A DNA stretch of 64,000 bases from Propionivibrio sp. (GTDB lineage Bacteria; Pseudomonadota; Gammaproteobacteria; Burkholderiales; Rhodocyclaceae), in NCBI GenBank assembly GCA_016705685.1, contig JADJLB010000001.1, positions 806,001-870,000 of the forward strand, read 5' to 3'. The notes under the pieces are model-generated. The model ran no database searches. It was not told where the DNA came from and worked only from the letters and a program-made list of their open reading frames with translations. Shown here one piece after another: positions 34,451 to 46,369 of the stretch. Every line of letters starts with the position of its first letter. The stretch's first letter is position 1. The position numbers and the translations under genes were made by a program.

Positions 34451-35095
34451 GTGGACGGCATCACCATTGCCCTTTCGAAGGGTCGTATTTTTGAAGAGAC
34501 GCTGCCGCTGCTGGCGGCGGCCGGCATCGAGCCGCTGGAAAATCCCGAGACCTCGCGCAAGCTGATCATCCCGACGACGCGCGACGACGTGCGTGTGGTG
34601 ATCGTGCGCGCGACGGATGCGCCGACCTATGTGCAATACGGCGCGGCAGACATCGGCGTGGCCGGCAAGGACGTGCTGCTTGAACACGGCGGCGACGGCT
34701 TGTACCAGCCGCTCGACCTGAAGATTGCCAAGTGCCGGATGATGGTGGCGATACCTGCGGGCTTCGACTACGAATACGCCGTGCGGCAGGGCGCTCGCCT
34801 CAAGGTGGCGACCAAGTACATCAACATCGCCCGCGAGCATTTTGCCGCCAAGGGCGTGCATGTCGATCTGATCAAGCTCTACGGTTCGATGGAACTGGCG
34901 CCGCTGGCCGGGCTGGCCGACGCCATCGTTGATCTGGTGTCGACCGGCAGCACACTCAAAGCCAACAATCTGGTGGCGGTCGAACACATCGTCGATATTT
35001 CGTCGCGATTGATCGTCAATCAGGCCGCGCTAAAGCTCAAGCGCGAGCGCATCGACCCCATCCTGGACGCCATCGCGCGCGTTGTCGGGCGATGA
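34451..35095 (+). CDS. hisG: ATP phosphoribosyltransferase, short form
   Basis: HisG makes phosphoribosyl-ATP from ATP and PRPP, the first and committed step of histidine synthesis. GTG 34451 is preferred over GTG 34436 because GGGA lies six bases upstream. The 214-residue product is the HisS-type short form ([26 protein letters not shown]-like [22 protein letters not shown]), which needs the regulatory partner HisZ, not present in this window. It overlaps hisD by four bases (ATGA). Confidence 0.96.
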
Positions 35096-36420
35096 TCGCC
35101 ATCAAGCGCTTTTCGACCAGCGACGCGGATTTCAAGCCGCGGCTCAATGCGTTGCTGGCCTTTGAAAGCGCGCAGGACGAAGCGGTTGACCTTGCCGTGG
35201 CCGACATTCTGGCCGAGGTCAAAGCACGCGGCGATGAAGCCGTAATCGAATACACCCGGCGCTTCGACCGGCTCGACGTTGCATCGATGGCCGAGCTGGA
35301 GCTTTCGGGTGACGCTTTGCAGAGCGCTCTGGCCGGCTTGCCCAGCGAGCAGCGCGATGCGCTTGAAGTGGCCGCCCACCGCGTACGCAACTATCACGAG
35401 CGGCAGGTTCTGCACAGCTGGCAATACGTGGAAGACGACGGCGAGGCGGATGGCGATGGATGCGGCACGCTGCTCGGGCAAAAGGTCACCCCGCTCGACC
35501 GCGTCGGCCTCTACGTGCCCGGTGGCAAGGCCTCGTATCCCTCGTCGGTGCTGATGAATGCGATTCCGGCCAAAGTGGCGGGGGTCAAGGAACTGATCAT
35601 GGTCGTGCCGACGCCGGGCGGCGAACGCAATCCGCTGGTGCTGGCGGCGGCGGCGCTGGCCGGGATCGACCGGGTGTTCTGTATCGGTGGCGCGCAGGCC
35701 GTTGGCGCGCTGGCTTACGGGACACAGAGCGTGCCGGCGGTGGACAAGATCGTCGGTCCCGGCAATGCGTATGTCGCCGCGGCCAAGCGCCGCGTATTCG
35801 GCGTTGTTGGCATCGACATGGTCGCCGGACCGTCGGAGATACTGATCATCTGCGACGGCAAGACCGATCCCGACTGGGTGGCGATGGACCTCTTTTCGCA
35901 GGCCGAGCACGACGAGCTGGCGCAATCGATCCTGCTGTGCCCCGACGCGGCGTATATCGGGCGCGTCGCCGAGTCGATCGAGAAACTGCTGCCGACCATG
36001 CCGCGCAAAGACGTTATTCGTGCATCGCTGGAAAATCGCGGCGCGCTGATCCAGGTGCGCGATCTCGATGAAGCCTGCACCATCGCCAATCGTATTGCAC
36101 CGGAACACCTTGAGCTATCGCTGGCCGATGCCGACGACTGGGTGGCAAAGATTCATCATGCGGGCGCCATTTTCATCGGGCCCTACGCGTCCGAGTCGCT
36201 CGGCGATTACTGCGCCGGGCCGAACCATGTCCTGCCAACCTCGGGCAGCGCGCGCTTCTCGTCGCCGCTCGGGGTCTATGATTTCCAGAAGCGGACCAGC
36301 CTGATCCGCGTGTCGCAGGCCGGAGCGAAGACGCTCGGGCGCATTGCCTCGACGCTGGCCCGGGGCGAGGGTTTGCCGGCACACGCCCGCTCCGCCGAGT
36401 ACCGCATCGAGTCCGAGTAA
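35092..36420 (+). CDS. hisD: Histidinol dehydrogenase
   Basis: HisD oxidises histidinol to histidine in two NAD-dependent steps with zinc. The 442-residue product has [54 protein letters not shown] (zinc-binding) and PEHLEL motifs. An acidic patch ([12 protein letters not shown], near residues 111-122) slightly lengthens a surface loop. The gene follows hisG directly, but hisC, which normally comes next, is elsewhere and inverted; six bases separate hisD from a convergent reductase gene. Confidence 0.97.
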
Positions 36421-36426
36421 GATCGG

Positions 36427-37746
36427 CTAACGCAGTTCGAAGGCTTCCTGGTGAAAGCGCAGGCGGCCATTCCAGGACGCCTTGAGACCGCGCTTGAGCG
36501 CGTCGGCGAATCCGCTGGGGCCGCAGAACCAGACTTCGGTTTTGTTCCGTTGCCCGCCGGCCAGCTTGAGCGAACCGGCCGTCAACAGGTCGCCATGCTT
36601 TGCGCTGTGTACTTGGAGCCGGATTCCGGGCAGCGCAGCGCAGAGCGCCTTCAGGCGACCGACGAATGGATCCTTTTCGCGATCTTGCGTGCAGTAGTGG
36701 AAGTCGGCATCGCGAGCATCGGCCGGGCGCGCCTGCAGCGATTCCAGCCAGGCCAGAAACGGCGTTACGCCGATCCCGCCAGCCACCCAGATCTGGTGGC
36801 TGTCCGGGTTGTGGCGCTCCAATTGGAAGCGGCCGTAAGGCCCCTCGATTTTGACTTTCTGGCCGGTTCGTACACGTTGGGCGAGATTCTGCGTGAAATT
36901 GCCGAGCGCCTTGATGTAGAAGGTGATTGTCCGGTTGCCGCGGTCGGCGCTGGCGATGGTGAAGGGGTGCGCGCCTTCGACCCAGTCGAAGGTGACGAAG
37001 GCGAATTGGCCAGCACGATGGTTATTCCATTGTTCTTCGAGATGGCAGGTCAACTCGGTCACGTCGCCTTCACGCTTGACCGCGAGCACCGAGCCATTGA
37101 CCTGGCGGCGACGACCGATCAAGCCGGCGAGCACGACAATGCTGGAAACCACGCCGATCGAAAGCACCGCGGCCAGCAGCAGACCGACCGGTTGCGACCA
37201 GTAGGCGGGCGGCGCCAGCAGCGATGCGTGCAAGGCCAGCATCAGGTAGAGCACCGGCATGATGCGATGCAGATGACGCCAGATGTGATAGGGGAAGCGC
37301 CGCCACAGGGTGATGACGAGCATCGCCAGGGCGATGTACAAGGCCGGTTCGCCCATGTCGGCGGCGAGTTCGCGCAGCACTTCGAGCATTCCGGAATATT
37401 TGATCTTCGGCAAGCGGCCTGCTGTGCCGATGAGCGACTTGATCAATCCGCCCGATTGCTTGATCAGCCAGTGACTCGCACCGAAGCCGATGGCCAGGAT
37501 GCCCACCCATTTGTGCAGGCGGTAAACGCGGTCCAGCCCGCCGAGCGGTTTTTCCAGCCAGGCCGGTCGAGTGGCGAGCAGCATGGCGAGCGACATGAAG
37601 GTAATCGACAACAGGCCGGTCAGATACATGCCTTCCTGGCGCGAGACCCACAGCAGCGCGCTGTTGGCCGGGAAGGTCGTCGAGACCAGGTCGAGATACC
37701 AGGCGGAACCAACAATGGCCAAGAGGCCGATGATAATGGTTTTCAT
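36427..37746 (-). CDS. Ferric-reductase-like transmembrane flavocytochrome
   Basis: The 439-residue inner-membrane protein has about six N-terminal helices with haem-b ligand histidines (RLHKWVGILAIGFGASHWL; WRHLHRIMPVLYLMLALHASLL), followed by an FAD-binding beta-barrel (HPFTIASA, near residue 265) and an NAD(P)-binding domain (VAGGIGVTPFLAWL, WFCGPSGF). This is the ferric reductase/NOX-like fold that moves electrons from NAD(P)H via FAD across the membrane. It starts five bases after the dihaem cytochrome stop, so it likely passes electrons to the periplasmic cytochromes encoded with it. The acceptor is unknown. Confidence 0.88.
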   Translation of the reverse strand: MKTIIIGLLAIVGSAWYLDLVSTTFPANSALLWVSRQEGMYLTGLLSITFMSLAMLLATRPAWLEKPLGGLDRVYRLHKWVGILAIGFGASHWLIKQSGGLIKSLIGTAGRLPKIKYSGMLEVLRELAADMGEPALYIALAMLVITLWRRFPYHIWRHLHRIMPVLYLMLALHASLLAPPAYWSQPVGLLLAAVLSIGVVSSIVVLAGLIGRRRQVNGSVLAVKREGDVTELTCHLEEQWNNHRAGQFAFVTFDWVEGAHPFTIASADRGNRTITFYIKALGNFTQNLAQRVRTGQKVKIEGPYGRFQLERHNPDSHQIWVAGGIGVTPFLAWLESLQARPADARDADFHYCTQDREKDPFVGRLKALCAALPGIRLQVHSAKHGDLLTAGSLKLAGGQRNKTEVWFCGPSGFADALKRGLKASWNGRLRFHQEAFELR

Positions 37747-37751
37747 ATTTG

Positions 37752-38243
37752 CTATTCGTCATAATAGCCGCGTTCGGCGTCGGCATGACAGGCCAGACAG
37801 TTGGCCTTGGTACGGACGTTGTTACGCAGCCATCCTTTGGAAGAAATCTCGCGATGCTCACGCACCCACTTCGGCAGCTCGGTAATGCGCAAGGGAGGGT
37901 TCTGCACGGACACGCCGCGCATCAGCTTGCTGCCGTAACGCTGCCCACCGGTGTCGGCGGCATTCTCACTGAGATAGCGGGTGATGTGTTCGGCGGTGGC
38001 TGGAGAGACGCTGGCATCGGTGCCAAAGTGCTTGTCCAGCTCGCCCATCATGCGCTTCCACGAACTTGCCGGCAGCATCGACGGGGGGAAGGCGAGGTGG
38101 CAACTGCCGCACTCCTCGCGCACGACGGGGTCGGAAACCGGGGCGAAGTAGTGTCCGCCGCCGGCCTGCGCCCGGGCGAGAAAAATTCCCGAGAAAATCA
38201 TCGCGACCAGACTCAGGGCAATGGGTCGGTAAGGGATATGCAT
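37752..38243 (-). CDS. Dihaem cytochrome c (DHC family)
   Basis: The 163-residue precursor has a signal peptide (about residues 1-27, cleaved after AQA) and two c-type haem motifs, CGSCH near residue 45 and CLACH near the C-terminus, with the spacing and FPPSMLPASSWKRMM segment typical of DHC. In other bacteria DHC is encoded beside SHP/DUF1924 cytochromes and a membrane cytochrome b or reductase, as here. AAGGAAA precedes the ATG. It is periplasmic and probably relays electrons between the flavocytochrome and the DUF1924 protein. Confidence 0.9.
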   Translation of the reverse strand: MHIPYRPIALSLVAMIFSGIFLARAQAGGGHYFAPVSDPVVREECGSCHLAFPPSMLPASSWKRMMGELDKHFGTDASVSPATAEHITRYLSENAADTGGQRYGSKLMRGVSVQNPPLRITELPKWVREHREISSKGWLRNNVRTKANCLACHADAERGYYDE

Positions 38244-38262
38244 GGCAGCTTTCCTTGTGAAG

Positions 38263-38679
38263 TCACTGATGGATCATGTAGCTCAGCCAGTCGCCCTTTT
38301 CGAGCGCGGTGCATTCGCGGCCCAGAACGTCGTTGCAATTGCGCTTGAACCATTTCTCGACCTTGGCTGGGTCGGTGTAGCGGGCAGGCGTGAGCGATAC
38401 GGCGAGCGCTTCGATGGCTTTGCCGGCTGGCGTGCGACCGGTGCCGCGCGGGCTGTCCGAATGGCAACTGGTGCAGCTTGGCGTTTCTGCCTTGCCGCCG
38501 GCAAACTTCGTGAAATGCAGCTTTTCGCCACGCACGGCAGAAAAGCCTGAAAATGCCGGTGATGCAGCCTTGGCAGAAAGGGCATACTGGGCCACAAGGT
38601 CATCGCGGGATGCGGCGGAACTGCCGAGCGGCAACAAAAGCGCGGCCAGCAGCAGCGTTGCAGAGGTATTGGTTGGCAA
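38263..38679 (-). CDS. DUF1924 (SHP-like) monohaem cytochrome c
   Basis: The start is TTG 38679, just after AGGAGA, giving a 138-residue precursor with a clean signal peptide (TLLLAALLLPLGSSAA). One haem motif, CTSCH, lies near residue 73, and two further cysteines (RNCNDVLGREC) could form a disulfide. This matches the sphaeroides haem protein/DUF1924 group, in which the sixth haem ligand is exchangeable, allowing small-molecule binding. It is first in a three-gene minus-strand operon and divergent from the PepSY gene. Confidence 0.85.
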   Translation of the reverse strand: MPTNTSATLLLAALLLPLGSSAASRDDLVAQYALSAKAASPAFSGFSAVRGEKLHFTKFAGGKAETPSCTSCHSDSPRGTGRTPAGKAIEALAVSLTPARYTDPAKVEKWFKRNCNDVLGRECTALEKGDWLSYMIHQ

Positions 38680-38727
38680 GCGTTTCTCCTGTTCGTTGAT
38701 GTCTTGGGTGCACTTTGCCGGAGCGTG

Positions 38728-38768
38728 TCTGAACACAAGCTGAATCGGCCATTCATCCGCCGTTCAGA
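38728..38768. promoter_or_regulatory. Symmetric four-half-site operator between divergent operons
   Basis: TCTGAAC (38728-38734), CTGAAT (38740-38745), ATTCAT (38751-38756) and GTTCAGA (38762-38768) form an almost perfect 41-base dyad. TGAA and TTCA cores repeat at 11-base steps, the signature of tandem OmpR/PhoB-type regulator binding. It sits in the 135-base gap between the DUF1924 and PepSY starts, so the adjacent response regulator may control both directions. The sites were found by eye. Confidence 0.6.
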
Positions 38769-38814
38769 TCTATCGGGGTACAAATGCGATAGGTGTGCTT
38801 TTTCGGGAGGGGCG

Positions 38815-39153
38815 ATGCGATCGGGAGGGACGGGCAAAGGCTGGCGGGCTATCGGTCTATTACTTGCCTTTGCTCTGGCGCTGCCCGGTCACGCCGACGA
38901 TCTGCGCGACCATGATCGCGCGCGCCGGGCGCTTGAAGCCGGCGAGATACTGCCGCTGAAAACCGTGCTGGAGAAGATTGCTCGCGATACGCCGGGGCAG
39001 GTATTGGAGGTCGAGCTTGAGCGCAAGGGTGAGCGTTGGGTGTATGAGATCAAGCTGTTGCGTGCGGGCGGTTCGCTGGTCAAGTTCAGGGTGGACGCGC
39101 GTGACGGGGCGATCATTCCGCGCCAGGAACAAGGCGCAACAAGCGATCGCTGA
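38815..39153 (+). CDS. PepSY-domain periplasmic protein
   Basis: The 112-residue precursor (ATG 38815, after GGGAGG) has a signal peptide (RAIGLLLAFALALPGHA) and one PepSY-like domain (RRALEAGEILPLKTVLEKIARDTPGQVLEVELERKGERWVYEIKLL). Such small PepSY proteins are often encoded before a response regulator and kinase and are thought to modulate periplasmic sensing or protease activity. Fifteen bases separate it from the regulator gene. Confidence 0.85.
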   Translation: MRSGGTGKGWRAIGLLLAFALALPGHADDLRDHDRARRALEAGEILPLKTVLEKIARDTPGQVLEVELERKGERWVYEIKLLRAGGSLVKFRVDARDGAIIPRQEQGATSDR

Positions 39154-39168
39154 TCGGGAGAAAAAGGG

Positions 39169-39830
<662 letters not shown>

Positions 39831-39834
<4 letters not shown>

Positions 39835-41252
39835 CGGGCTTTGGCCAGGAACATCCATCGTCGGCGCTACGCGGTTCGTTGCGCCTCCGCCTGTTGATCG
39901 GCACCCTGGCCTGGATCGCGGTTTCGATCATCGTCGCCGGGTGGGCGTTGGATGGCTTGTTCAGAAACCACATTGCCCGGCAGTTTCATGCCGAACTCAA
40001 TACCCATCTCGATCAGCTCGCAGCGCATCTGGCGGTTGACCAAACGGGGCAGGTATCGCTATCGGCCGCGCAAAGCGATCCGCGTTTCAACAAGCCTTAT
40101 TCGGGGAGGTACTGGCAGGTCGACCGCCTTGGCGTGTCGACGGGCGAATCCGTGGGTGTTTTACGTTCCAGATCGCTGTGGGACGATGTGCTCAGGGTGC
40201 CGCCCGATACGCTGACCGATGGCCAAATACATTGGCATCGCATCCCCGGTCCCGGTCCCGGCAAGACGATGCTCGGTTTGGTCGAGCGCGTGGTCACGCT
40301 TGCTGACGTCGCGGATCCGGCAGGCCAGGCCTACCGGTTGGTCGTCGCTGCCGATGAGCATCAGATGGCCGAGTCGATAGAGCACTTCAACCAAATGCTT
40401 TGGCTGGCGCTGGGGCTGCTGGGCGGCGGGCTGACGCTGTCTGCCGTCATTCAAGTGCGGACCGCGCTGGCGCCGCTGCGGCGTTTGCACGGTGCCCTGG
40501 CAGACGTACGCAATGGTGGAACACCTCGGCTGGAAGGCCATTTTCCACTGGAGGTCCAGCCGCTGGTCGAGGAATTCAACAGCGTGCTGGCGCAGAACGC
40601 CGAGGTGGTGGCACGGGCCAGAACCCAGGCGGGGAATCTGGCGCATGCGCTGAAGACGCCGTTGAGCGTCATCGCCAACGCCGCGAACGCTCAGCAGGGC
40701 GACATGGCGAAACAGGTTTCAGAGCAGGTCGAGGTTGCGAGAAAGCAGATTGACTACCATCTGAGCCGGTCCAGACTGGCCGCTTCGGTGCGTGTTCCCG
40801 GCACACGGACACCCGTCTCACCCGTGCTCGACGGGCTGATCAGGGTCATGCGGCGTATTTATGCCGAGCGGAATCTCGAGTTGGTCCTTGCCACACATCC
40901 TGAGCCCCCGGTTTTTCGCGGGGAGGAACAGGATTTGCAGGAAATGCTGGGCAATCTGCTCGACAACGCGTGCAAATGGGCGACACGGCGTATCGAAATA
41001 GCGCTGTCGGAGGTCGGCGACGAACTCCTGATCACTCTGGATGATGACGGTTGTGGCCTTTCCGCCGCGCAACAACAAAGGGTCCTGATTCGCGGCGAAC
41101 GCGTGGATGAGCAGCTGCCCGGTTCCGGCCTCGGCCTGGCGATCAGCAACGATCTGGCGCATCTCTACGGCGGCCGGGTCGAGCTGGCCGATTCACCGCT
41201 GGGAGGGTTGCGCGTGACGCTCGTCTTGCCTGCGGCGGCAACTACCCCATGA
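39831..41252 (+). CDS. Sensor histidine kinase partner
   Basis: The 473-residue membrane kinase has a first helix (LLIGTLAWIAVSIIVAGWAL, about residues 20-40), a periplasmic sensor of about 140 residues, a second helix (about 185-205), a HAMP-like segment, phospho-acceptor histidine near residue 272 (NLAHALKTPLSVI) and an ATP-binding domain (NLLDNACKWA, DDDGCG, GSGLGLAIS). The architecture matches QseC/PhoQ-like kinases. It is co-translated with the regulator. The signal is unknown; redox or metal sensing is suggested only by the neighbours. Confidence 0.94.
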
Positions 41253-41275: not shown

Positions 41276-43261
41276 CTACCAGCTTGTAAAGAAACCCACC
41301 CCGACCAGGGTCAGCAAGATCAGGCCGATCACGATCAAGGTAAAACCGAGAATCTTCGATGCGGTGGTCGCCGATGGCGACGGTGCATCGACCAGATGCT
41401 TCTCCAGTTCGCCGGAGGCCAGCAGGCGCTGATACTCCAGCGGATGCTCATGGCGGTATTCTTCGAGCGAGACGGTGCCGGTGAACATCACGATATCCAG
41501 TGGGAATTTGTCCGGACGGAAGTGGTTGTTGAAGAAATGCACCGTAAACAGGAAGACCACCGCCAGGAACGCTTCTTCGCTGTGGAATATCGCTGCCACA
41601 TTGAAGACCCAGCCCGGTAGATATTGAGCCGCCAGTTGAGGAAGCCACATGATCAGGCCGCTGACGCCGATGATGGTCACCCCCCAGAAGGGCGCCCAGT
41701 AGTCAAACTTCTCCCAGTAGGTCCAGCGGTCGAAAATCGGGCGTGGCCCTTTGCCGAGGAACCACTTGAACATGGCGACGATGTCTTTCAGATCCTGCCA
41801 ACCGGGAACCAGCGAGTTCGGGCCAAAAGTCTTGAAGTTTTTCCAGTCGCGCGCGAGTTTGATCCCGATGTAGAACAGGTGCCAGAAGAAAACGCCGCCG
41901 AAGATTACCGCATTGATGCGGTGGATGATGCCCGCCGTGTGCGGCCCGCCCAACAGGATCATCAGTGGCTCCGCCCAGGGTGCTGCGGGGAAGAACAATG
42001 GAATGCCGGTCAGCGTGAGCAGCATCAGGCTCAGCGCGAAAGTGATGTGCGCGATGCGCCAGGTGCGGCTGAAACGCTTGAAGTGTTTGCCGTGCAATTT
42101 GGGCGGCAGCTCGTCCAGGGTGGCGGTGTTGATGTGCGCCTGCCCCCGGCGTTGCCGGCGTTCCTTGAATTCACGGTAGAACCACAGGAGCGTATGCAGC
42201 CAGAAAAAACCGAAGGTGCCTAGCAGAAGCTGGGTCATGATCTGATTGGCAATCCAGATCTCGGGGTAACGCTTGAAATCGCCCGCATGACCGTGCGGTT
42301 GAAAGCTGGAGAATCCCGGCGGTGCGTCTGGCAAATCCTTCTTGCCGTTGTGACACGTGCGGCAGGTCTTCATGACGTTGTTGGGGTGCACCTTGGATGC
42401 CGGGTTCTTGACATCGAGGATGCCATGGCTGCCATGGCAGTCGTAGCACTTGGCCGTGTAGGCATGGCCCAGGGTGTTGATCTTGCCGTGGTAGGTGTCT
42501 TTATAGGTCTTGTAATTTTTCTCATGACAACTGCCGCACTTCGCGGTAATGGCCAGTTTGATGGGGTTCGCCGAGGTGTTGCCGATGCCGTGCGTGGTGT
42601 GGCAGTCGGAGCAGACGGCGGACTTCAGGTTGTGTTTCTCTGAAATCTGCTTCCCATGCACCGAGTCGTTGAACTCATCCAGTTCGTCGCTGTGGCACTT
42701 TTCGCCGCATACCTGGGGAACCGTGAGATGCCATTCGGTGCGTTGAGCTGTTCCGCGCGCCGGCACGTTGAAGCCGTGTGTATCGTGACAGTCGGTGCAG
42801 GTGGCATTGACGCGATTCGGGTCTTCCTTGTTCGCACGGGCGTGAAAGGAACTCTTGTACGCGAGAATATTTTCAACGACGACACCCAGCCTCGGCTTGC
42901 CCTTCGCCGTGTCCTCTCTTCTTGCCGCCTGCCAGAGTGTTTCATGGCACTGGGCACAGTCGGGGGGTGCGACGCCGGAGACCCGCTGATGCCCGGCCTT
43001 GCTGTCGACGATGTCCGTATGACAACTCACGCAGGTCAAGGCCGCATGCACGCTCTTCTTGAACCTGGCTGAACTGACGGCGCGCAGTTCATGTGTCCCG
43101 CCGGCTGCTCCCGGCATTTCCAACTTGCTTTTCCCGCTGTTGTGGCAGCTCAGGCAGGTGGCGTCGTCAAGTTTGGTCGCCATCGCCGGCATGGCGATCA
43201 GGAAACCGCTCAGGAACATGGCGCCGAAGAGTGCACGCATTAAGGCGGATGCAATTTGCAT
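41276..43261 (-). CDS. CbcL-like fusion: nonahaem cytochrome c domain with cytochrome b membrane domain
   Basis: A 661-residue protein from ATG 43261 (in-frame GTG at 43270 is the alternative). A signal peptide is followed by eight CXXCH motifs (CLSCH, CVSCH, CAQCH, CTDCH, CSDCH, CGSCH, CYDCH, CRTCH) plus one CX3CH (CGEKCH), between residues ~36 and 320. The C-terminal half has about five membrane helices with histidines typical of FdnI/HydC dihaem cytochrome b (RIAHITFALSLMLLTLTG, GIIHRINAVIFGGVFFWH, IFHSEEAFLAVVFLFTVHFF). Domain order and haem number match CbcL of Geobacter, an inner-membrane quinol dehydrogenase for extracellular electron transfer. It likely exchanges electrons between quinones and the small cytochromes encoded upstream. 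Confidence 0.85.
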   Translation of the reverse strand: MQIASALMRALFGAMFLSGFLIAMPAMATKLDDATCLSCHNSGKSKLEMPGAAGGTHELRAVSSARFKKSVHAALTCVSCHTDIVDSKAGHQRVSGVAPPDCAQCHETLWQAARREDTAKGKPRLGVVVENILAYKSSFHARANKEDPNRVNATCTDCHDTHGFNVPARGTAQRTEWHLTVPQVCGEKCHSDELDEFNDSVHGKQISEKHNLKSAVCSDCHTTHGIGNTSANPIKLAITAKCGSCHEKNYKTYKDTYHGKINTLGHAYTAKCYDCHGSHGILDVKNPASKVHPNNVMKTCRTCHNGKKDLPDAPPGFSSFQPHGHAGDFKRYPEIWIANQIMTQLLLGTFGFFWLHTLLWFYREFKERRQRRGQAHINTATLDELPPKLHGKHFKRFSRTWRIAHITFALSLMLLTLTGIPLFFPAAPWAEPLMILLGGPHTAGIIHRINAVIFGGVFFWHLFYIGIKLARDWKNFKTFGPNSLVPGWQDLKDIVAMFKWFLGKGPRPIFDRWTYWEKFDYWAPFWGVTIIGVSGLIMWLPQLAAQYLPGWVFNVAAIFHSEEAFLAVVFLFTVHFFNNHFRPDKFPLDIVMFTGTVSLEEYRHEHPLEYQRLLASGELEKHLVDAPSPSATTASKILGFTLIVIGLILLTLVGVGFFTSW

Positions 43262-43285
43262 ATTCCTCACTGCTCCCGACAGTCG

Positions 43286-43312
43286 AAAAAAGGGGCCGGT
43301 TTGACCGGCCCC
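43286..43312 (-). terminator. Intrinsic terminator between the monohaem cytochrome and CbcL-like genes
   Basis: On the minus strand GGGGCCGG and CCGGCCCC form a perfect eight-pair stem around TCAAA, followed by six T residues. It lies inside a same-strand gene set, so it could limit read-through into the CbcL-like gene. Confidence 0.82.
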
Positions 43313-43372
43313 ATACGACCTGAACTAAATCTCACACTGGCTAAAAAGTGGCATTCTCCAGAGTCACGCAAC

Positions 43373-43711
43373 TTAGCGTGAAAGGATCCAGTCGATCAGG
43401 TTTTTCAGCTCTTTCGGGTCTTTGGTGTCGATGATCTTGTGATCTTCTTCGGTGCCGTCTTCAAGTTTGACTTTCGGACCGGTCGTCAGGTTCTTCATGA
43501 TCTTGTCTTCGGCATCGGCTTTGCCCTTGAACTTGGCGGCGATTTTCTTGTACGACGGGCCTTTCTTGGTCTTATCAACCGCGTGGCACTTGAAGCAGTC
43601 ATTGCGCTTACCGATTGCCTTGGCGGCTTCCTCATCCACTGCGGCAAAGGCGGAGCCGGCCAGCCCCAGTGTCAGCAGGCCGGGGATCAGCAGGTTCTTT
43701 ATCACATTCAT
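43373..43711 (-). CDS. Monohaem class I cytochrome c
   Basis: The 112-residue precursor (ATG 43711) has a signal peptide cleaved after SAFA and one haem motif, CFKCH, near residue 39, with KGPSYKKIAAKFKGKADAEDKIMKNL downstream, typical of cytochrome c551-like carriers. A distal methionine is not obvious, and the usual axial segment is replaced by VKLEDGTEEDHKIID, so the sixth ligand is uncertain. The annotated frame could extend to 43768, but that adds a hydrophilic stretch before the signal peptide. It lies between the EBDH-like and CbcL-like genes and is probably the soluble shuttle between them. Confidence 0.87.
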   Translation of the reverse strand: MNVIKNLLIPGLLTLGLAGSAFAAVDEEAAKAIGKRNDCFKCHAVDKTKKGPSYKKIAAKFKGKADAEDKIMKNLTTGPKVKLEDGTEEDHKIIDTKDPKELKNLIDWILSR

Positions 43712-43740
43712 GGCGCCCTCATCAGTCAAAAGTTTTTCTG

Positions 43741-43770
43741 CTGTGGACCGGCCTGGCGACCGGTCCACAG
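43741..43770. repeat. Perfect 11-bp hairpin between cytochrome genes
   Basis: CTGTGGACCGG (43741-43751) and CCGGTCCACAG (43760-43770) form a perfect stem with an eight-base loop, between the EBDH-like stop (43786) and the cytochrome c start. No T-run follows, so it is more likely an mRNA processing or stability element than a terminator. Confidence 0.75.
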
Positions 43771-43785
43771 TGAAACACGGTCTGG

Positions 43786-45117
43786 TTATGGAAGTTTGAC
43801 TGCGTTGATGTCAACCTTGGTGCCCTTCGCTGCACCAAGACCAAGCGTCTTGACAAACGAAACGTGGTGGCCGCGCGTGGTGATATTGTCGTCGTGAGCG
43901 GCAAACCCGACGTTATAAACTCCCCCGGCTTTTAACGCCTTGTCGTCGCTATTGGTCAAGCCGAGCGGGCGAATCATGACGACCGTCCATATGCCGTCCT
44001 TCCAACTGGCGATGGCGTTGTTGTCTGCCGCCGAACCTTTGGCATCTTCGCGGCTGACGATGTAATCGGGGATCATGTCGCCTTCTTTCCAGCCGGCATT
44101 CGGATCGAACGGCACGGCATTCTGCTCGCGAATCAGGAAGTGATCTCCCTTGTGCAATTGCTCGGCGGTGATTGATTTGTAGCCGACCTTTTTGGCATCC
44201 CACATGAATTTCGGCGCATGCGTTGCTTTGTCGGCATTGCCGCTGAACATGTCATTGCCAGCGTCGCCGAGACGCCACTCAAGCACATAGCCATCGTCGG
44301 CCATGCCGACCGGGTTGCTGCGATGCGCGCGCCACTGGATGAGGTCAACAAAACCGCCTGCCGCCTTGATTTTGGCGATGTCCTCCACGCTCTTTCCGGT
44401 TTTCCAGTCCAGGGGGTCAGTCCGGGTTTCCGGGAGATACTTGCGTACATCGCTCTTCTTGATCGCCGTCAACAAGGTATTGGCAGCGACCTCTTCCTTG
44501 GTGAACAGCTTGGGCATATCGCGTTGACCGTCGTGACAGGAGAGCCAGCAGCCCTGTTGGGCAAATCCGGGAACCTTGCCGTCGTCGATCATGACCGACA
44601 TGCGGTCCTCATAGATGCCGATCATGTGGCCATCCTGAACGATCTTGTCGAGTTTGGGGTAGCCCCAGACTTTCCACTCATGGCCATCGAAGCGCAGGTA
44701 CTGGTGTTCTGTTCCAGGATAAGCGTTATCGGTTTTCCATTGAAAGCGCAGGTAAGCATTCTTGGTGTCGTAGGCCGCTTGCACCTTGAGATCCTTGTAG
44801 CCCGACTTGCCCTTGACCGGCATGGGTTCCAGCGGACCCGCTTGCACCAGCTTGTTGCCCAAATCCTTCTCGGCGCCTTCTTCGTCATGGCATGAGGCAC
44901 AGGCATCGCCACGCTTGACCTCTTTCGCCGCATTCTTGTGCGCATCGCTACGCACCCATTCGTAGGAGGATTGCCCCGGGTAGAACAAAGGGACACTGGT
45001 CGCCGGAATCTTGGACCAGTTGATCTTGGCCGGATCGGCCGCCGTTGCGGTTCCGGCGGTGATTGCCCCAATGATTCCTATCGCGGCAATTTGAACGAAC
45101 AATGCGGTTGTCTTCAT
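43786..45117 (-). CDS. Ethylbenzene-dehydrogenase-gamma-like c-type cytochrome
   Basis: The 443-residue precursor starts at ATG 45117, four bases after GGGGGAA, with a signal peptide cleaved after GTATA. It has a CASCH haem motif near residue 74 and a CX3CH motif (CWLSCH) near residue 190. The C-terminal 250 residues resemble the haem-binding DMSO reductase/EBDH gamma subunit fold (FDGHEWKVWGYP, GYVLEWRLGDAGNDMF, WTVVMIRPLG). In ethylbenzene dehydrogenase this fold carries electrons from a molybdenum enzyme, but no molybdopterin subunit is encoded nearby. The role here is inferred: periplasmic electron transfer to or from the adjacent cytochromes. Confidence 0.82.
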   Translation of the reverse strand: MKTTALFVQIAAIGIIGAITAGTATAADPAKINWSKIPATSVPLFYPGQSSYEWVRSDAHKNAAKEVKRGDACASCHDEEGAEKDLGNKLVQAGPLEPMPVKGKSGYKDLKVQAAYDTKNAYLRFQWKTDNAYPGTEHQYLRFDGHEWKVWGYPKLDKIVQDGHMIGIYEDRMSVMIDDGKVPGFAQQGCWLSCHDGQRDMPKLFTKEEVAANTLLTAIKKSDVRKYLPETRTDPLDWKTGKSVEDIAKIKAAGGFVDLIQWRAHRSNPVGMADDGYVLEWRLGDAGNDMFSGNADKATHAPKFMWDAKKVGYKSITAEQLHKGDHFLIREQNAVPFDPNAGWKEGDMIPDYIVSREDAKGSAADNNAIASWKDGIWTVVMIRPLGLTNSDDKALKAGGVYNVGFAAHDDNITTRGHHVSFVKTLGLGAAKGTKVDINAVKLP

Positions 45118-45196: not shown

Positions 45197-45233
45197 GTGA
45201 CTGATTATCATTGCATTTCGGCAGGATTGGCAA
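45197..45233 (-). promoter_or_regulatory. Candidate promoter with Fur-like box for the cytochrome set
   Basis: On the minus strand TTGCCA (45228-45233) and GATAAT (45204-45209) are 18 bases apart, about 80 bases before the EBDH-like start. The -10 lies in TGATTATCATT (plus strand 45202-45212), which matches the Fur-box consensus at 13 of 19 positions by my count across 45197-45215. Iron control is a hypothesis. Confidence 0.4.
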
Positions 45234-45283: not shown

Positions 45284-46369
45284 TCAGCCGAGGACTTGGC
45301 GCAGCGCATCGACCAGCGCCTGGCATTGCGCTGCGGTGCCGATCGAGATGCGCAGGTGCTGGTCGATACGCGGCAACTTGAAGTGGCGGACGATGACTTG
45401 GCGCTGGCGCAATTCCGCGGCCAGTCGCGCCGCGTCGTGTTGTGGATGGCGCGCGAAGATGAAGTTGGCCGCCGAGGGCAGCACCTCGAAGCCCAGGCTG
45501 ACAAGGGCAGCGGTCAACAAGGCACGACTGTGCATGACCGCTTGCCGCGTTTTCTCGTGGTGATCCTTATCCTCCATCGCCGCGCTCGCGCCGACGATGG
45601 CCAGGCGATCGAGCGGATACGAGTTGAAGCTGTTCTTGACCCGTTCCAGCGCCTCGATCAGGGAAGCGTCACCCACGGCGTAGCCGACGCGAAGCCCGGC
45701 CAGCGAATGCGATTTGGACAGCGTACGGATCACCAGCAGGTTCGGATAGCGGTTGACCAGCGCAATGGCCGTGGGGATCGCCGGCGCGCTGAAATCGATG
45801 TACGCTTCGTCGATAATGACCACCGATTGCAGGTTGGCGGCCGCCAACCGTTCGATGTCAGTCAGCGGGAGAAGGTGGCCCGTCGGCGCGTTGGGGTTGG
45901 CGATGACGATGCCGCCGTTGCCCGGCCGGTAATCGTCAATGCCGATTTCGAAATCGGCGTTAAGCGGGATGGCGATGTGCTCAACCCCGTAAAGACCGCA
46001 ATACACCGGATAGAAACTGTAGGAGATGTCGGGTAGCAGGATGGGCGCATCGTGCTTGAGCAGCGCCATGAAGGCGTGCGCCAGCACTTCGTCGGAACCG
46101 TTGCCGACAAAAACCTGGTTCGGCGCGAGCGCATATTCGGCAAAGTGGGTGACGACGGCGTCCTTGAATCGATCGGCGTTAGGGTCCGGGTAGAGACGCA
46201 AGTTGGCCCCGTCGCTTCCCAGTTCTTCGCGCATCGCCGCGATCACGCGCGCCGACGGCGGATAGGGGTTTTCGTTGGTGTTCAGCTTGACCAGCCCGGG
46301 CAGTTTGGGCTGTTCGCCCGGAACATAGGGCGACAGGCGGTGAACAAGGGGGCTCCAGTAGGGGTTCAT
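45284..46369 (-). CDS. hisC: Histidinol-phosphate aminotransferase
   Basis: HisC transfers an amino group from glutamate to imidazole-acetol phosphate with PLP. The 361-residue class I/II aminotransferase has [44 protein letters not shown] and the PLP-lysine region [16 protein letters not shown]. It lies on the minus strand between plus-strand hisD and hisB, the only his gene reversed. It is followed by the cytochrome genes in the same direction. Confidence 0.96.

Follow-up and report, generated by a model that had tools for sequence, protein, structure and literature searches.

What chain is served by three adjacent cytochrome genes that have no catalytic subunit beside them? The question is raised by a locus of Propionivibrio sp. 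(Rhodocyclaceae; assembly GCA_016705685.1) located in a 64,000-nucleotide stretch of contig JADJLB010000001.1 (positions 806,001 to 870,000), here called the window. An earlier inspection of the letters alone, the sequence-only reading, had described the locus as a CbcL-like quinol:cytochrome module with a partner resembling the gamma subunit of ethylbenzene dehydrogenase (EBDH). The three same-strand genes that it listed are present among the open reading frames (ORFs) of the window:

43786..45117, minus strand: EB_dh-fold dihaem cytochrome of predicted c-type, 443 aa, with a signal-peptide-like N-terminus (PF09459, E 1.1e-64)
43373..43711, minus strand: MtoD-like monohaem cytochrome c, 112 aa, with one CX2CH motif and one further conserved His
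41276..43270, minus strand: CbcL/MtoC/MtrH-type fusion, 664 aa, with nine c-haem sites followed by a six-helix cytochrome b domain

The trio probably serves electron transfer between the cell membrane and the space beyond it. We read it as a quinone-linked branch of the Mto kind in which the dihaem EB_dh cytochrome replaces or accompanies the MtoAB outer-membrane conduit, a reading to which we would give an even chance; the EB_dh relative may be a stand-in for the outer-membrane wire common in such chains. The genes are ordered on the minus strand as EB_dh (45117-43786), monohaem cytochrome c (43711-43373) and fusion (43270-41276), with intergenic gaps of 74 and 102 bases. The EB_dh ORF spans 45171-43786, with an ATG and a signal-peptide-like start at 45117, the end coordinate given by the sequence-only reading. 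The ORF of the monohaem cytochrome spans 43768-43373, with a likely ATG at 43711, and the start codon of the fusion is the GTG at 43270. The genome (G000; G, L and C numbers denote the genomes, loci and contigs of this analysis) comprises 3.46 Mb in 17 contigs and is 97% complete; the fusion occurs in it once, and PF09459 likewise has a single match.

The N-terminal half of the fusion is covered by multihaem Pfam families and contains nine haem motifs, of which eight are CX2CH and one, site 5, is CX3CH. In the 81 rows used for the haem-site count (of 86 long fusion rows, loci numbered L123 and up being left out), site 1 was kept in 80 rows and the other eight sites in all 81, so the term ‘nonahaem’ used earlier is correct. 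Site 5 (residues 188-193 of the window protein) was CX3CH in 53 rows and CX2CH in 28, while the remaining sites were CX2CH in every row keeping them; counts restricted to CX2CH motifs will report eight haems. Nine further His residues (75, 94, 143, 165, 205, 227, 261, 282 and 326), present in 81/81 rows, would fit nine bis-His haems. The C-terminal half matched Ni_hydr_CYTB at residues 399-579 with 23.7 bits, under the cut-off of 30.1, and showed similarity to the formate dehydrogenase gamma subunit at residues 398-615 (TIGR01583, E 4e-7, also under the cut-off). A single-sequence search related it to Escherichia coli FdnI at E 0.005. Residues H408, H450, H563 and H578, present in all 81 rows, aligned with H18, H57, H155 and H169 of FdnI, which we take to be haem ligands of that protein. 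A structure model of the fusion (pLDDT 66, pTM 0.60) contained six long helices in this half, and its only Foldseek match under 1e-3 was 1kqf_C (FdnI; E 3.2e-4).

The fusion is thus a member of the CbcL/MtoC/MtrH family, and the CbcL-like architecture proposed earlier, a nonahaem N-terminal half joined to a six-helix HydC/FdnI-like cytochrome b half, held. The same nonahaem/cytochrome b architecture has been described for CbcL, MtoC and MtrH, with MtoC/MtrH showing ∼35% identity to Geobacter CbcL (PMC6295460, presumably Zhong et al. 2018). Geobacter CbcL is a match in architecture, but among named proteins those of betaproteobacterial iron oxidisers and reducers, MtoC/MtrH and MtoD, are probably the nearer relatives, the rank of MtoC/MtrH above CbcL being drawn from the published ∼35% figure. 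The label ‘quinol oxidase’ used in the sequence-only reading has to be dropped: it presumes a direction of electron flow, and nothing here shows direction.

The monohaem cytochrome c (PF00034, E 9e-7) had as its best solved relative PDB 4XXL (E 8.3e-34), which is MtoD of Sideroxydans lithotrophicus, a bis-His monohaem cytochrome with a potential of +155 mV (PMC4412085). By this match it is to be regarded as a close relative of MtoD. It contains one CX2CH motif and a single further His, found in 71/71 rows and aligned with a His of 4XXL; bis-His ligation would be expected. The MtoC-MtoD pair is already known, since mtoC and mtoD have been reported in betaproteobacterial mtrCAB clusters (PMC8805035, presumably Baker et al. 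2022).

The third member is the unusual one. The EB_dh protein has two haem motifs, C73-x2-C76-H77 (CX2CH) and C190-x3-C194-H195 (CX3CH). Both motifs, together with His60, His408 and His417, were missing from no more than one of the 18 aligned rows (window included, one locus entered twice) and were invariant in a set of seven. Two conserved covalent-haem motifs would speak against a non-covalent haem b. The score against TIGR03477, the curated model of the EBDH-gamma type, was 40.9 bits (cut-off, 169.85), and a seven-row EB_dh profile reached 2IVF_C only at E 0.03. Judged from its sequence, the protein is a dihaem c-type member of the PF09459 fold and not a usual EBDH-gamma. Of the ‘EBDH-gamma-like partner’ described earlier the fold therefore stands, while the haem b accessory role of EBDH-gamma is not to be carried over to a predicted c-type dihaem protein.

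The association of these genes recurs. The order sample comprised 399 genomes. EB_dh (E up to 1e-50) was found in seven of them, the fusion (E up to 1e-100) in 21 and both in five, a co-occurrence with a Fisher p of 4.9e-6, or 6.6e-5 when the window genome was excluded. The two genes lay within 3 kb of each other in four of the five genomes with both; in the fifth (G780) they were on different contigs. Within the genus of the window (28 genomes, the window's included), the fusion was present in three and a long EB_dh in six, including those three; two weak partial matches, one of 64 residues at the end of a contig in G007 (E 4e-5) and one in G022 (E 1.5e-6), do not enter the fusion count, and the EB_dh count omits shorter or weaker matches (E 1e-38 or weaker). 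Same-strand sets of the three genes were found in the window, in G009 (L043), G013 (L128, where the fusion is cut by a contig end), G642 (L184) and G647 (L185), and at L065 and L120. The sequence-only reading had made its case depend on co-occurrence in relatives, and this was borne out, the set recurring across families.

At least 575 relatives of the fusion were confirmed, and 80 loci were kept for neighbourhood counts, which are lower bounds where contig ends cut the locus. An MtoD-like gene (38 to 81% identity) was found at no fewer than 59 loci, an MtoA- or MtoB-like gene at 27 or more (two of them, L100 and L106, being weak MtoA-only matches of 31-34% over about 210 aa), EB_dh at six or more and a molybdenum (Mo) enzyme at eight or more. 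Named records among these loci include Rhodoferax, Ramlibacter, Polaromonas, Aromatoleum, Herbaspirillum, Sulfuritalea, Gallionella and Sulfuricella. Since its partners vary in this way, the fusion is best seen as a hub with changeable partners. EB_dh and MtoAB can also stand together, as in G140, Sulfuricaulis (L111) and Herbaspirillum (L073); the G140 cluster reads EB_dh-MtoA-MtoB, with the fusion divergent and MtoD beside it.

Going by the usual role of its fold, the EB_dh protein might belong, as an orphan accessory, to a type II Mo enzyme whose genes lie elsewhere; the neighbours of a 42%-identical homologue (G269, L147) do include NrfC/NrfD-type genes and a stretch with a match to a Mo enzyme. 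The window genome has two PF00384 matches, both on contig C10 (the window is on C1). They are NarG (with NarH) and a NasA/FdhA-like protein, and neither is of the EBDH type; EBDH-type Mo alpha and Fe-S beta partners were not found among the PF00384 matches of the genome, nor was an EBDH-type Mo enzyme without a gamma subunit of its own. With TIGR03477 far under its cut-off, and with none of the six EB_dh-positive loci among the 80 matching the one Mo query used (from G028, E 1e-10), an accessory role of this kind is very improbable. The earlier remark that no catalytic subunit is encoded at the locus holds, and the cluster is not invariably completed by a Mo enzyme: the query found one at 8/80 fusion loci and at 0 of 6 with EB_dh.

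Mo enzymes next to the fusion are of another sort. Five of those at the eight loci were 79-82% identical to the G028 query and three were 26-28% identical. The best curated match of the G028 protein was ArrA, below the cut-off (1017 of 1600 bits); the enzymes of the five loci are therefore probably Arx/Arr-like. At L124 (G028), L055, L093, L101, L103 and L104 the fusion and MtoD-like genes adjoin an ArrA/ArxA-like Mo enzyme, an Fe-S subunit and a TorD-like protein, and at all of these except L104 there is also a phosphonate-type binding protein, a kinase and an NtrC-type regulator. An arsenic-type oxidoreductase may be another partner served by MtoC-MtoD.

The window genome had no match to the MtrB/PioB porin (PF11854); the decahaem MtoA/DmsE-type model (TIGR03508) gave no score above its cut-off, picking up the fusion and one weak hit, and the MtrC-type domain gave only weak matches within the fusion. 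The possibility of an MtoAB set elsewhere in the window genome was rejected on these grounds (no MtrB/PioB, no decahaem protein over the cut-off). Seventeen further genomes were searched for MtrB/PioB, with a match in eight (G721, G780, G140, G048 and G798-G801) and none in nine (G009, G012, G013, G017, G023, G642, G647, G028 and G802). Among the 13 genomes with both EB_dh and the fusion, six had no MtrB/PioB match (G000, G009, G013, G642, G647 and G802). The five of these other than the window genome have the three genes and no MtrB, four of them being 98-99% complete and the fifth unrated.

Several observations weigh against the proposed reading of the trio. MtrB/PioB is present in the other 7/13 genomes with EB_dh and the fusion (G721, G780, G140 and G798-G801). 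Porin_O_P (PF07396) had no match in the window genome, a search not shown to detect Cyc2, so that Cyc2, PCC3 or another conduit may be encoded there. In the order, two of the seven EB_dh genomes have no fusion (G665, 70% complete, and G785, whose EB_dh is 38% identical), and in the genus of the window three of the six genomes with a long EB_dh (G012, G017 and G023) had no fusion match. EB_dh was found at E 1e-60 in 7/369 genomes of a class sample; apart from the window genome, G140 alone has the fusion next to it, and the other five EB_dh proteins are 40-57% identical. One is beside a NapC/NirT cytochrome (L146) and another beside the NrfC/NrfD-type and Mo-type genes of L147; nothing obvious lies beside EB_dh at L145 and L149, and L148 is a 3.1-kb contig. 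As EB_dh also occurs without the fusion, and its far homologues keep other company, it is not tied to MtoC alone. A 24-row fusion profile searched against PDB did not recover FdnI at E 0.01, only an unrelated designed protein. The AlphaFold model of the EB_dh protein (seven sequences) was unusable (pLDDT 31.6), so its fold and ligands rest on sequence. Finally, a hairpin described below could allow the fusion to be transcribed separately.

Part of this evidence suits a more conventional explanation, in which the three genes supply the inner segment of a standard extracellular electron transfer (EET) pathway, a non-MtrB conduit (Cyc2, PCC-type, Uet or other) is encoded elsewhere, and the EB_dh protein is an extra periplasmic relay. 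The MtoA- or MtoB-like genes near the fusion at 27 or more of the 80 loci and the MtrB/PioB matches in 7/13 genomes agree with it and, as the window genome is 97% complete in 17 contigs, a conduit could have been missed. The window genome nevertheless lacks matches to MtrB/PioB and Porin_O_P and any decahaem protein over the cut-off, its MtrC-type matches are weak and confined to the fusion, and five other three-gene genomes also lack MtrB. We consider this explanation unlikely.

On a fusion tree of 88 rows, 12 of them linked to EB_dh, the link needs at least nine changes, all nine forced by starred branches; in shuffles of the link, 9/500 were as low as nine changes (mean, 11.5). The tree was built by a quick method with SH-aLRT support only, omitting copies L123 and L125 and with four rows added; EB_dh may lie beyond some contig ends, and one linked row (L188, from G780) has EB_dh on another contig. 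The link has been repeatedly gained or lost, the two not being told apart, and the tree disfavours simple vertical descent of a single fixed trio as the only explanation.

A natural swap is seen at two Sulfuricella-type loci. Sulfuricella sp. T08 (L119) and its relative G642 (L184) have a common site between a 1072-aa gene and ccm genes, the latter with 85-99% protein identity. The gene order is fusion-MtoD-MtoA-MtoB in T08 and EB_dh-fusion-MtoD in G642, where no MtoA/MtoB match was found in 20 kb. In place of the MtoA-MtoB genes kept by T08, G642 has 3′ remnants of a second fusion and MtoD gene. What is left of this second fusion is its C-terminal end (L184 6189-6377), with 93% identity to the T08 gene across 109 bases; the MtoD remnant is short. 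The neighbouring regulators of T08 and G642 also differ (26-36% identity). This is a single case from which the order of events cannot be read; it makes the EB_dh/MtoAB alternative directly testable.

From the gene content, haem motifs, family relationships and recurrent co-occurrence observed, we infer an electron path, its order, and a place for EB_dh as outlet. The MtoC/CbcL-type membrane domain would exchange electrons with the quinone pool via two b haems, giving them to, or taking them from, its nonahaem periplasmic domain; the MtoD-like cytochrome would shuttle them, and the dihaem EB_dh cytochrome would form the outlet of the module, docking to a further redox partner. This partner would be MtoAB where encoded and, in genomes without MtrB, some periplasmic or outer-membrane partner. 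The earlier suggestion of a chain whose partner is encoded elsewhere is thereby supported. More tentatively, the dihaem EB_dh cytochrome could be a second, interchangeable outlet for MtoC-MtoD in bacteria without an MtrAB-type conduit, that is, a periplasmic or differently wired relative of Mto that marker-gene lists for EET miss; this is possible, though rather doubtful.

The complete trios in genomes without MtrB, and the lack of an EBDH-type Mo enzyme in the window genome, would also suit an EB_dh protein that is itself a catalytic or sensing haem protein for a small soluble periplasmic molecule, with MtoC-MtoD feeding or draining it. The unusual CX3CH second haem site, with its strongly conserved surroundings, points the same way. 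No active-site resemblance was found, however, only PF09459 and the weak EBDH-gamma match (E 0.03), and we regard such a function as improbable.

Two possible transcription signals were noted at the trio:

43292..43312, minus strand: G+C-rich hairpin of 9 pairs with TTTTTT after it, in the gap separating the MtoD-like gene from the fusion gene, a possible terminator or mRNA 3′ end
45204..45233, minus strand: weakly supported match to a sigma-70-like promoter, upstream of EB_dh

Three terminator-like sites were found in the region versus 4.9 expected in shuffles, the 43292-43312 hairpin having the most pairs. In two congeners hairpins fold at the same place without the T run, and are not listed as terminators. 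This arrangement is a hint that production of the membrane protein could differ in level from that of the soluble carriers. For promoters, one sigma-70-like match was found versus 1.6 expected, and none in the three relatives scanned; a GATAAT upstream of EB_dh was seen only in the window and L128 among 11 upstream regions compared.

The trio lies between a hisC-like gene and, past a second redox cluster, a hisD-like gene, names that we presume from the translated sequences:

35092..36420, plus strand: hisD-like gene, one border of the stretch in a histidine gene region
45284..46369, minus strand: hisC-like aminotransferase gene, the other border, directly upstream of the EB_dh gene

It also follows the hisC-like gene in the congener G013 (L128); in G009 (L043) it lies elsewhere, flanked by what we take to be a CusA-like efflux set and a transposase-like fragment. 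The position of the trio therefore varies within the genus. The second haem cluster (36427-38736, minus strand) encodes a DUF1924 cytochrome, a DHC dihaem cytochrome that matches 2fw5 (E 1.6e-31) and a ferric-reductase-like FAD protein. The best solved relative of the DUF1924 cytochrome is 1dw0 (E 1.6e-25), which we assume to be SHP. A 62% relative of the FAD protein is located upstream of the EB_dh-MtoD-fusion set of L120. Genes for a PepSY protein, an OmpR-type response regulator and a PhoQ/QseC-like kinase (38704-41252, plus strand) are oriented divergently to the DUF1924 gene and converge on the fusion gene; it may be the DUF1924/DHC cluster that they control, and not the trio. Neither Rfam nor tRNA scanning gave a match in the window.

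The open-licence PMC papers searched contained no description of EB_dh together with MtoC/MtoD, which is not to claim that none is in print; as far as these searches go, the EB_dh partner is a new part. PMC10654088 mentions MtoD and ethylbenzene dehydrogenase, and likens the archaeal FoxC to EBDH-gamma. MtoC/CbcL and MtoD are read as signs of iron oxidation and EET. Should the pair work with EB_dh in place of MtoAB, these signs could be misleading, and a quinone-linked redox branch not yet described would exist in some Rhodocyclaceae, Sulfuricella-type and other bacteria.

Compared with known systems, the EB_dh protein shares the PF09459 fold family with the EBDH gamma subunit (2IVF chain C) and the haem b subunits of type II DMSO reductases, but it is 443 aa long versus 214 for 2IVF chain C, has two covalent-haem motifs, and no EBDH-type Mo partner was found for it. 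The MtoABCD pathway of iron oxidation and extracellular electron uptake is resembled in the adjacent equivalents of MtoC and MtoD; it differs in that MtoB and a decahaem MtoA were not found in the window genome, and an EB_dh cytochrome is present. The monohaem cytochrome resembles S. lithotrophicus MtoD (4XXL) in sequence family, in its single haem and in the conserved further His. With Geobacter CbcL, Dechloromonas/Gallionella MtoC and Rhodoferax MtrH the fusion shares the nonahaem and cytochrome b halves and an MtoD-like neighbour, to which MtoA/MtoB-like neighbours are added in many relatives. The window differs from these systems in having no MtrB/MtoB match in the genome and an EB_dh gene as partner, and the CX3CH at haem site 5 of its fusion is common to 52 other rows of the family.

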